Part shown: one piece after another, positions 340-7,362 of the stretch
Layout: each line of letters opens with the position of its first letter
Position numbering within the stretch: position 1 is the first letter of the stretch
From: Desulfobacterales bacterium
GTDB lineage: Bacteria > Desulfobacterota > Desulfobacteria > Desulfobacterales > C00003060
Direction of reading: 5' to 3'
Assembly: GCA_030613145.1 (NCBI GenBank)
Contig: JAUWMM010000081.1
Coordinates: forward strand, 1-7,457
Length of the DNA stretch: 7,457 nucleotides
Program-made: the position numbers and the translations under genes
Notes under the pieces: generated by a model
Database searches by the model: none
Told to the model about the DNA's origin: nothing
Seen by the model: the letters and a program-made list of their open reading frames with translations, nothing else

Positions 340-402
340 GATGCTGGTTACTGGAGGCTGGATTCAAGGTCATCCAGTATCAAGAATCCAGTAACCAGTA
401 TC
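340..402. repeat. Inverted repeat of the CTGGTTACTGG / CCAGTAACCAG family
   Basis: CTGGTTACTGGA (344-355) is a perfect 12-base inverted copy of TCCAGTAACCAG (387-398). GAT/ATC extends the arms at the outside (340-342/400-402). A second stem, CTGGAT/ATCCAG (358-363/372-377), sits inside. The same words (CTGG, TACTGG, CCAGTATC) recur at 955-1044. It lies about 75-140 bases past the stop codon of the cobalamin-subunit gene on the minus strand and could act as a transcript 3'-end structure, but there is no T-run. The remaining bases 1-57 and 403-477 show nothing I can name. Confidence 0.55.
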
Positions 403-4543: not shown

Positions 4544-4757
4544 CGAATATCGAAACATGAAATTCGAAATGGTTCGACTGGCTCACCATCCTGAGCGAAG
4601 TCGAAGGATAAATTCGAATACCAAATGACAAAATGACCGAAACCAAACTTGTTGGAAACTCTATGTTTTTGTCATTGGAGCATTATTATTTCTGTCATTG
4701 TTTGCGGCTGACGCCTTGAAAACAGCACGGATTTCGAAATTCGAAATTCGAATTTTT
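4544..4757. repeat. TTCGAA-type repeat block between biotin carrier and carboxyltransferase genes
   Basis: The block is bounded by runs of the palindrome TTCGAA: one copy at 4563-4568, one at 4613-4618, and three at exact 7-base spacing at 4733-4738, 4740-4745 and 4747-4752. Between them, CCAAATGACAAAA (4621-4633) is mirrored by TTTTGTCATTGG (4667-4678) with one bulge, and GTCATTG recurs at 4694-4700. The pattern resembles the AAATTCGAAT...AAATGAC repeats I remember from many anaerobe and metagenome-derived genomes. No gene is visible here. Confidence 0.55.
4573..4605. repeat. REP-like hairpin (TTCGAC...GCTCA...TGAGC...GTCGAA)
   Basis: TTCGAC (4573-4578) pairs with GTCGAA (4600-4605), and inside them GCTCA (4581-4585) pairs with TGAGC (4592-4596) around CCATCC. 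The core CTCAGGATGGTGAGC, read on the minus strand, matches a dispersed repeat I recall from many unrelated bacterial genomes. It sits inside the TTCGAA block as a separate element. Confidence 0.6.
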
Positions 4758-6038: not shown

Positions 6039-6917
6039 TTGAGTATCTTACATGCAAAAACCCCCATTAGGCCCCCCTACGTTGACCTCCATATCCACTC
6101 CACGGCCTCTGATGGCTCTCTTTCTCCTTTGCAGATCGTCAAAACCGCCGAGAACGTGGGTCTTCGCGCCATAGCGATCACAGATCACGATACCATCGAG
6201 GGCTCGCTCGAGGCGTTACGGCACCAGCATTCCACTGACGTTGAGATATTATCCGGAATTGAGATAAGTGCCGGTGTTGACTCGGGTACGATGCATTTAT
6301 TGGGTTACTTGATCCATTTGGATGACGTCTCTCTCAGACAGACCCTCAAGGTCGTGCAAGAGGCCCGGGCCAACAGAAACATAGAGATCATAAGAAAGCT
6401 TCAAGATCTCGGAGTTGATATTAATTTTGATGAGGTCTCAAAGGTTTCAGGTGGTGGTCAGATTGGGCGGCCCCACATTGCCCAGGTGCTGGTCCACAAA
6501 GGGGCTGTTCATAGTATTGATGAGGCCTTTAGGAAGTTTTTAAAAAAAGGTCGTCCCGCCTACATTGAAAGATACCGACTTTTGCCTGACGAGGCAATCC
6601 AGACTATTTTACAGGCAGGAGGTGTCCCCGTGCTGGCTCATCCCTTTACTTTGGATGCAAAGACCGAGGGGGAACTGGACAGGCTCCTTGCAGACTTGAA
6701 ACAGGCCGGGTTAAAAGGTGTGGAGGTCTACTATCCAGCCCATGGGCCTGAGCTCACCGCCCAGTATGAGCGTCTTGCGCATAGCCATGGGCTTCTTATT
6801 ACAGGTGGAACGGATTTTCACGGAACGGTAACTTCGGGGGTTAATATTGGGGTAGGAAGAGGGGACCTGCGGGTACCATACCGGCTTGTGGAGGAACTCA
6901 AACGAAGTGCGACATAG
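6039..6917 (+). CDS. PHP-domain phosphoesterase (RNase AM / 3',5'-nucleoside bisphosphate phosphatase type)
   Basis: This 292-residue PHP-family metallohydrolase matches the size of E. coli RNase AM (YciV/TrpH, about 293 residues) and of nucleoside 3',5'-bisphosphate phosphatases. The trinuclear metal-site motifs are in order: VDLHIHSTASDG (15-26; H18, H20, D25), TDHDT (48-52; H50), GIEIS (73-77; E75), HLLGY (86-90), GRPHIA (143-148; H146), AHP (200-202; H201) and GTDFHG (257-262; D259, H261). Expected substrates are pAp-like nucleotides or short 5'-monophosphorylated RNA ends; sequence alone cannot choose. The start is TTG at 6039, the only start codon before the HIH motif in this frame, placed 6 bases after dksA. 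GGGG at 6024-6027 is a weak ribosome site, so translational coupling to dksA is likely. The stop is TAG. No terminator hairpin with a T-run is seen after it. Confidence 0.87.
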   Translation: MSILHAKTPIRPPYVDLHIHSTASDGSLSPLQIVKTAENVGLRAIAITDHDTIEGSLEALRHQHSTDVEILSGIEISAGVDSGTMHLLGYLIHLDDVSLRQTLKVVQEARANRNIEIIRKLQDLGVDINFDEVSKVSGGGQIGRPHIAQVLVHKGAVHSIDEAFRKFLKKGRPAYIERYRLLPDEAIQTILQAGGVPVLAHPFTLDAKTEGELDRLLADLKQAGLKGVEVYYPAHGPELTAQYERLAHSHGLLITGGTDFHGTVTSGVNIGVGRGDLRVPYRLVEELKRSAT

Positions 6918-6928
6918 GGGCCTCTATA

Positions 6929-7362
6929 CCCCATAAGCGCTAAGTTGTTTTGTAAACGTTCACAGGTGGCATTTATGCCGTACGGAATTGTTTTGAAAGA
7001 TGAACATCGAACATCGAACGTCCAACGTCGAATGAAAAACGAATATCCAATACCGAACATTCAACGGCTATTTCTGTTTCTTTTCAGCTGTTTTGATACT
7101 CGCAACGAAAATCTTAATTAATTCTTCTGTTTCCTCTAGAATATCATTTAGTAGTTCAGGTTTTTTAATTCATAGTACACGCTGAATGAGTTTTAACCAT
7201 CTCTGGGTCTCCCTTTTTCCCATTCAACATTCGATCCGCCGGACAAGTGCTTGCTCGCCTGTGGCGAGTTGGACGTTCGATGTTCGATGTTCATTTTTTT
7301 CAGTAAACCTTCCACAGTCCATCCAGTGCAAAAATAACTTAGTGCCTATGGGGCTTATGGGG
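6929..7362. repeat. Nested inverted-repeat element around a four-helix bundle gene fragment
   Basis: Outer arms: CCCCATAAGC (6929-6938) mirrors GCTTATGGGG (7353-7362), and CTAAGTTGTTTT (6940-6951) mirrors AAAATAACTTAG (7331-7342) with one mismatch. Inner arms: 27 bases at 7000-7026 are a perfect inverted copy of 7268-7294, built from GAACATCGAAC and CGTCCAAC words. Short hairpins GGCAT/ATGCC (6968-6972/6975-6979) and CTCGCC/GGCGAG (7254-7259/7263-7268) also lie here. The centre holds a decayed four-helix bundle gene. The whole looks like a transposed or rearranged cassette. No transposase is visible. Confidence 0.65.
7068..7223 (-). pseudogene. 3' fragment of a four-helix bundle (S23 / 23S intervening-sequence) protein gene
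   Basis: Read on the minus strand from 7223, one frame gives MGKRETQRWLKLIQRVL, an in-frame TGA at 7170-7172, then IKK-PELLNDILEETEELI and KIFVASIKTAEKKQK, ending at TAG (7068-7070). The blocks RET-x-RWLKLI and ELLNDILEETEELIKIF-x-x-SIKTA are what I recognise as the last two helices and tail of the four-helix bundle family (intervening-sequence proteins of 23S rRNA genes, related to the Avd protein of diversity-generating retroelements). Intact members are about 115-130 residues, so the first half is missing; it is replaced by repeat sequence from about 7221 onward. Truncation plus an internal stop make this a relic. The family assignment is by memory of the motif. Confidence 0.7.

Follow-up and report, generated by a model that had tools for sequence, protein, structure and literature searches.

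A decayed, probably inserted element with a four-helix bundle gene relic between inverted seven-base repeat arrays in a Desulfobacterales genome

The window analysed here is a stretch of 7,457 nucleotides from contig JAUWMM010000081.1 of a Desulfobacterales bacterium. A decayed multi-copy element spans 6932 to 7350 of the window, in the gap 3' of an ORF at 6039-6917 that by its look encodes a PHP-type protein. The element consists of the following parts, among them the relic of a four-helix bundle (4HB) gene:

6932-6946, plus strand: left terminal inverted repeat, CATAAGCGCTAAGTT; a left end common to the copies on contigs C79, C302 and C286
6996-7026, plus strand: left heptad arm, GAACATC GAACATC GAACGTC CAAC, from the inverted-repeat search and the sequence
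7027-7067, plus strand: degenerate extension of the left heptad array, GAATATC CAATACC GAACATT CAAC, from the sequence
7068-7214, minus strand: 4HB gene relic, roughly the final 40% of the coding sequence, with one in-frame TGA and a TAG stop at 7068-7070, from the TIGR02436 match
7215-7236, minus strand: what was probably once the 5' leader of this gene, with degenerate heptads (GAATGTTGAATGGGAAAA)
7237-7267, no strand: small nested palindrome-like insert with a GACAAGTGCTTGCTCGCC core, between the relic and the right arm
7268-7298, minus strand: right heptad arm, the inverted copy of the left arm, from the inverted-repeat search and the sequence
7336-7350, minus strand: right terminal inverted repeat, CATAGGCACTAAGTT, equal to the left one at 13 of 15 positions

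The two arms form a 31-nt inverted repeat that is 97% complementary and is built of a 7-bp tandem unit, GAACRTC; the perfect 27-base inverted arms at 7000-7026 and 7268-7294 described in the initial annotation lie inside it. The outer inverted pair of that annotation was recovered as the 15-bp terminal repeat listed above. Its minus-strand 4HB fragment with one in-frame stop was also found, but it falls short of the C-terminal half, covering roughly the final 40% of the gene up to the TAG.

When the own draft genome, which comprises 2.0 Mb in 319 contigs and is 65% complete, was searched at the DNA level, copies of the element were located on nine contigs: C159 (the window), C3, C79, C203, C302, C202, C286, C45 and C46. 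The C46 copy perhaps occupies the same place as the C202 copy, the C45 and C46 copies are contig-end pieces, and the C3 copy likewise runs into a contig end. Both terminal repeats are present in the window, C79 and C286 copies only; the others have one repeat, an altered one or a contig end, the left-side homology of C203 and C202 beginning further inside and C302 having one clean and one altered end. The copies diverge right outside the right terminus and, in C79, C302 and C286, outside the left terminus, and the terminal repeats therefore look like real termini. With up to two mismatches allowed, the 2.0-Mb draft contains the terminal motif 17 times, compared with once for the reversed control pattern. 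The element is thus short and multi-copy, with common terminal inverted repeats (both ends in three copies) and no transposase inside, which are the hallmarks of a miniature inverted-repeat transposable element (MITE). Outside the own genome, DNA matches to the element were present in 16 of 39 relatives.

A piece of the 4HB gene is kept in the window and C3 copies only, and at least five of the nine copies are without the gene. In C79, C203, C302, C202 and C286 the start codon is followed at once by the final codons of the gene (ATG AAG AAA CAG AAA TAG or near, on the minus strand), and these five copies are therefore internal-deletion derivatives. The degenerate extension of the left array recurs in the C3, C79, C203, C302, C202 and C286 copies, and a leader like that at 7215-7236 is present in the short copies and ahead of the intact 4HB gene L059. 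The insert at 7237-7267 is absent from C79, C203, C302 and C3, and inserts lie at other positions in C202, C286 and C45. Such palindrome-like inserts, nested at varying positions per copy (window 7237-7267, L029, L030 and L031, also L025 and L028), have a GACAAGTGCTTGCTCGCC core, the form GTCGTAGC...CTACTATGGCGAAGTCGGC or the form CTTCGACTCCGCTCAGGGC, as if tiny second-order elements target the copies.

Assignment of the relic to the S23/four-helix bundle family, as had been proposed, is supported; intact relatives of the same subfamily lie above the profile cut-offs, and the window fragment alone lies just under. TIGR02436 matches the relic at 7086-7214 (profile positions 66-108, one TGA inside) with 21.5 bits, the curated cut-offs being 24 bits for TIGR02436 and 33.8 bits for PF05635; the intact genes L161 and L165 score 91.5 and 89.7 bits with TIGR02436 and 58.7 and 58.4 bits with PF05635. 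The frame of the relic reads RETQRWLKLIQRVL-stop-IKKPELLNDILEETEELIKIFVASIKTAEKK, with the stop left in, and is close to L161. The sister copy on C3 is 87% identical to L161 over residues 73-119, and the window is 50% identical to it over 19-121, a stretch that includes non-homologous read-through with two TGA codons.

With L161 (G005) as the query, intact members of the subfamily were found in G037, G059, G040 and G038 at 89%, 87%, 82% and 76% identity, respectively. These five genomes represent five families of one order, and the five members have GAACRTC-type arms, which bears out the earlier suggestion that a 4HB gene and its repeats form a cassette. Members at 54-56% identity to L161 (G017, G011 and G044) and a member in G042 (49%, partial match) have GAATRTC arms, those in G016 and G008 (51-54%) have ATGATAA arms, that in G015 (53%) has TATTTGA arms, and that in G020 (62%, partial match) has CAATRTC arms, which are weaker. 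The heptad thus changes stepwise together with the protein. The 4HB proteins are basic, with a median pI of 8.9 (85 proteins), and, among proteins of solved structure, their relatives by sequence are 2rld and 2gsc (XCC0516 of Xanthomonas). S23p of X. campestris is described, in the part of the source consulted, as a homopentameric torus (PMC4990558). Two 4HB matches (G017:C218:9330-9680 and G016:C71:20561-20899) lie inside open frames of 415 and 414 codons, respectively, and are possible fusions.

To quantify the enclosure of 4HB genes by inverted repeats, here called a cage, the best inverted match of the left against the right flank was scored, with a threshold of 16 or more. Matches to 4HB (E 0.01 or better) were present in 50 of 60 genomes, the own one counted. 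A cage was present in the own flanks of 60 of 87 relatives' loci, compared with 2.1% of mismatched pairs, these loci being biased to strong 4HB hits because they were taken from the best matches listed; a direct-orientation flank match reached the threshold at 11 of the 87. This set is 87 of 88 loci, with L090 and L103 omitted beforehand (contig ends) and with L165, a flank of which contains N, taken in. When ORF boundaries were used instead of profile ends, 44 of 83 relatives' loci had a cage, compared with 1.2% of mismatched pairs, the set omitting L083, L104 and L108 (truncated), L165 (N) and L153 (short flank).

Two further sets extend the result beyond these relatives. Named loci from a species-genome scan of many phyla were caged in 41 of 75 cases, compared with 1.2% of mismatched pairs; they derive from the 80 loci closest to one query, of 570 confirmed relatives, 77 being used and two of these (L187 and L189) repeating L133 and L159. 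By record titles, the caged named loci include members of Bacteroidetes, Chloroflexi/Anaerolineales, Planctomycetota, Acidobacteria, Nitrospirae, Verrucomicrobia, Neomarinimicrobiota and Zixibacteriota and a filamentous cyanobacterium. A third set, 30 loci out of 80 4HB matches in twelve genomes reached via the named loci, had a cage in 16 of 30, compared with 0.1% of mismatched pairs; nine of the 30 repeat named loci, and without the loci already counted the figure is 10 of 21.

Control ORFs of 100-190 codons, which are mechanical and not verified genes, were caged in 2 of 748 cases (0/150 in G016, 0/309 in G001 and 2/289 in 20 other genomes). High scores were also given by 28 of 935 random intervals, which are assumed to come from N runs in the sampled contigs. 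The predicted enrichment of 4HB genes between inverted repeats is therefore present, as they are caged far more often than random small ORFs, and neither of the outcomes named beforehand as refuting the initial reading was obtained. No clear cage was found at 31% to 47% of 4HB loci. Across many phyla, 4HB genes are often caged by inverted seven-base arrays, the unit of which differs by locus. The link to GAACATCGAAC repeats drawn in the initial annotation was too narrow, as many 7-bp repeats are involved, every one of them linked to a particular 4HB subfamily; the idea that GAACATCGAAC is a mobile sequence of a special kind was rejected, since it is one heptad among many. At L106 (G042) and L134 (G044), which belong to two families, the sequences flanking the caged 4HB genes resemble each other on either side, which suggests that the gene has long been kept at one site by vertical descent.

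The period of seven is a property of the arms. In relatives' loci, both flanks have a mean best self-match of 0.62-0.63 at lag 7, compared with 0.40 in the genes and 0.40 in far flanks; lag 14 is as high as lag 7, lag 6 gives 0.41-0.43 and lag 8 gives 0.46. The two flanks of the named set give 0.57 and 0.52 at lag 7 and 0.51 and 0.47 at lag 8. Random stretches of G016 contain 21 arrays of period 7, seven of period 8 and one of period 10, with none of periods 4-6, 9, 11 or 12. A modest core is common to 58 heptad units (3.66 bits; permuted units give 2.93, s.d. 0.09). Arm similarity between loci of different families (85 proteins) stays level at 7.6-7.9 as long as protein identity is below 40%, and rises to 13.3 at 60-80% and 17.9 above 80%; the Mantel correlation of arms and proteins is 0.157, with none of 999 permutations as high. 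Gene and arms therefore travel as one unit, a co-variation that by itself is no proof of binding and can also reflect plain co-inheritance. Arm similarity is 16.0 within loci and 14.4 between loci (49 of 78 pairs, p 0.002, the pairs not being independent).

Co-occurrence was also compared at the level of whole genomes. G001, a same-genus single contig without a 4HB match and so a natural near-control, has one heptad array in 400 kb, and G016, with 19 4HB matches, has 21 in 228 kb. Four arrays in all were found in 20 other genomes (5-40 kb sampled each), and six sampled contigs (L329, L334, L342, L353, L354 and L359) are N runs, so that G053 was in effect not sampled. No significant association between heptad arrays and 4HB number was obtained across the sampled genomes (Mann-Whitney p 0.53; Spearman 0.25, p 0.27), and the pooled excess of arrays stems from G016. 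A tblastn search of the sampled G016 stretches detected no 4HB gene, and accordingly no such gene lies inside any of the 21 arrays.

Marks of insertion were found for sister elements. Thirty rows with GTAACTACTCAGG ends were read, 16 of them with paired ends, and perfect 8-bp target duplications are present at seven distinct loci (eight rows; L427, L435, L436, L437, L438, L451 and L453), with sizes of 104-467 bp. L436, also seen as L452, is in the own genome on contig C31. At L440, 7 of 8 bp of the target duplication match, and paired GTAACTACTCAGG ends without a clear duplication were read at L429, L431, L432/L449, L445, L450 and L455. The element at L437 (also L139; G015) is 467 bp long, carries an intact 4HB gene and is inserted at an apparent start codon. 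Its site is uninterrupted in G009 (joined bases 3-300 match over 298 bp at 81%), and the insert is also not in G020 or G001, where the spacer is 26-37 bp longer. The site of the G013 element (L098) is uninterrupted in G006 (68% identity). Empty sites, for which a search had been suggested, are thus seen for sister elements.

A second type of end, CATAAGCGCTAACTTA, is accompanied by 11-bp duplications at two of the five distinct loci with paired ends, L463 and L470, where no cage is visible; the caged CATAAGCGCTAACTTA-end element L461 (G017) has no clear target duplication. Paired CATAAGCGCTAACTTA ends within 3.5 kb (14 rows, draft genomes) enclose 86-617 bp only, and no partner element bearing a transposase was seen. 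A systematic scan gave 8-bp duplications at 31 of 168 loci compared with 5 of 80 mismatched pairs, and 9-bp duplications at 12 of 168 compared with 0 of 80; many of these fall inside heptad arrays, and the set was restricted to those with GTAAC ends. The element ends presumably resemble those of IS186/IS66, and CATAAGCGCTAACTTA with its GC-rich targets is taken to resemble IS186 (IS186/IS231-type, IS4 family). A GTAAxCGTTCACAGG-like motif lies at 6952-6966, immediately inward of the left terminus of the window copy, and at the outer edge of some GGTTCA-type cages (L149, L159 and L188), hinting at composite ends.

The flanks of the window copy, GGGGCCTCTATACCC and GGGGCTTATGGGGG, are alike and unequal, with no clean target duplication. 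In the closest relative, G018, in which the neighbouring protein is 96% identical, the site (L168) has no GAACATC element and holds a different, gene-less heptad hairpin of the AAAGTGC/AAAGTTT type. In G006 (L185), a GAACATC element is present at the same site 3' of the PHP-type gene, in the opposite orientation.

The window locus is probably a decayed inserted element in which terminal inverted repeats surround a caged 4HB relic, and which is likely to have been moved by a transposase in trans. Given that at least five of the nine own-genome copies are without the gene and that ends with target duplications look IS-like, movement need not depend on protein from each copy. The initial proposal that these genes travel with the repeats is supported; its further idea, that the protein helps movement, is conjectural. 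Points against the reading as a whole are the lack of a significant co-occurrence across genomes, the empty G016 arrays, the 4HB loci with no clear cage and the want of a clean target duplication in the window copy and in L461. The 4HB protein is basic and related to a ring-forming pentamer; its predicted target is the heptad arrays of its own subfamily, bound as DNA, and it is likely that the protein recognises its own repeat. By bridging the arrays on both sides of the gene it could hold the ends together or hide them from the host, and a resident IS transposase would do the cutting. Gene-less copies would stay mobile while ends and arms remain, which would give rise to gene-less heptad hairpins, and 23S rRNA intervening sequences (IVSs) may be members that landed in an rRNA loop.

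An element acting at the RNA level, in which the arms pair in the transcript, the 4HB protein binds the stem as Avd may do with template RNA, and spread occurs via RNA or reverse transcription, as it might for an rRNA IVS, is unlikely. Stems of this kind are on record for IVSs, which RNase III cleaves, in the excerpted account of PMC4990558, and PF05635 is homologous to Avd of diversity-generating retroelements, a homologous protein family with a nucleic-acid role, in the portion of PMC10053308 consulted. Arm mismatches, however, have no G.U strand bias (152 compared with 154 over 96 loci), those compatible with G.U on the gene strand being without excess; selection on an RNA stem was rejected for lack of signal, which also speaks against a uniform RNA mechanism common with rRNA IVSs. 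From the lack of a G.U preference, we infer that DNA arms are favoured as the binding target. The 8- and 11-bp duplications beside terminal inverted repeats indicate DNA transposition in those subsets, and Rfam gave no match in seven sources, the window among them.

An ordinary MITE, derived from an IS, with a chance one-time capture of a 4HB gene useless to the element and with heptads that are products of intergenic slippage, is about as unlikely. The gene-less copies, the IS-like look of the ends with target duplications and the broken gene of the window fit this reading, and the elements do resemble MITEs in being short and multi-copy, in their terminal inverted repeats and target duplications (here of sister elements) and in having no transposase inside. 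Unlike MITEs, they carry a conserved protein family between inverted heptads and have at least two unrelated end types. Moreover, a single chance capture would not link 4HB to heptads repeatedly and is disfavoured by the cage statistics, in which many 4HB subfamilies with different or no detected ends are caged in many phyla and random small ORFs hardly ever are. That the host uses heptad arrays as regulatory sites, either protein-binding or structural, with cellular 4HB genes between them by chance, is highly improbable: earlier papers, in the parts consulted, took heptads as regulatory (PMC4679880, PMC2700814) and L106 and L134 look vertically kept at one site, but empty sites and target duplications, multi-copy dispersal with frequent decay, and a unit that tracks the 4HB subfamily across genomes argue against it.

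The known system closest in anatomy to the inserted element favoured here is the 23S rRNA IVS. As described in the consulted parts of PMC4990558, the Coxiella IVS has 428 nt, an S23p ORF, a 28-bp terminal stem, excision by RNase III and ORF decay, together with tandem GACAGAT heptamers of varying number before the S23p start codon, and mobility of IVSs was proposed there as an earlier idea. As far as that account extends, 23S IVSs are like the present elements in their length of about 430 nt, 4HB/S23p ORF, terminal inverted repeats, heptamers just upstream and decaying ORF; the same anatomy, from the heptamers ahead of the 4HB ORF to the inverted ends and the length of about 430 nt, was found in the element and its intact relatives. 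They differ in that IVSs lie in 23S rRNA and are excised by RNase III, whereas the present elements lie between genes, IS-like ends and target duplications marking some of them, and have heptads that vary among subfamilies. The window element lies between the ORF at 6039-6917 and the contig end, with no Rfam match, and not in 23S rRNA; 23S motifs were at none of the 4HB loci examined. Since the Coxiella IVS has the same parts, IVSs are probably rRNA-inserted members.

Cyanobacterial STRRs are bacterial heptanucleotide repeats, and repeats of this class are like the present arms in having a period of 7, a mostly intergenic position, inverted pairs in Xanthomonas and abundance in some genomes. 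In the consulted portions of the literature, GGGAATC in Xanthomonas forms 70 and 75 inverted pairs in two genomes (PMC4692102), GGGGAYT and TAACTGA repeats are reported from Nostoc and Beggiatoaceae, respectively (PMC4692102, PMC4679880), and heptad repeats are generally not associated with mobile elements (PMC4692102). The wording 'four helix' was not found in the available parts of PMC4692102, PMC4679880 and PMC2700814. Among the matches listed from open-licence PMC titles and abstracts, subscription papers being outside this scope, none joins heptad arrays to non-rRNA 4HB genes.

Foldback elements of Drosophila have inverted terminal arms of short tandem repeats; unlike the present elements they are eukaryotic and have other proteins, and we know of no kinship between the two. 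REPIN/RAYT systems are alike in combining a repeat family with a protein in trans. RAYT is a transposase and 4HB has, to our knowledge, no known catalytic site, and the repeat here is tandem, unlike REPIN.

A wider reading is put forward tentatively, as one that may well prove wrong: pan-bacterial tiny mobile elements in which a ring-shaped 4HB protein and a heptad code would co-evolve, every subfamily binding a heptad of its own, the gene being caged, the ends of resident ISs borrowed and hairpins shed, with heptanucleotide repeats and 23S IVSs as products. It would join the very common 4HB/S23 family, for which no function is known, the excess of bacterial heptanucleotide repeats and the origin of 23S IVSs, and the 4HB-heptad link would explain orphan seven-letter repeats across bacterial genomes. 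If the heptad is what the protein binds, genomes would offer dozens of protein-repeat pairs, graded in their heptads, from which a specificity code could be read, and the function of the 4HB family would be directly testable by simple binding assays.

Four more intergenic gaps of the window (340-402, 950-1048, 2759-2820 and 4544-4755) contain gene-less inverted repeats of other short tandem units, of the CTGGATA/CTGGTTA, AAGCTGA and AAATTCG types. Units like these flank intact 4HB genes elsewhere, for example at L121, L128, L113 and L163.
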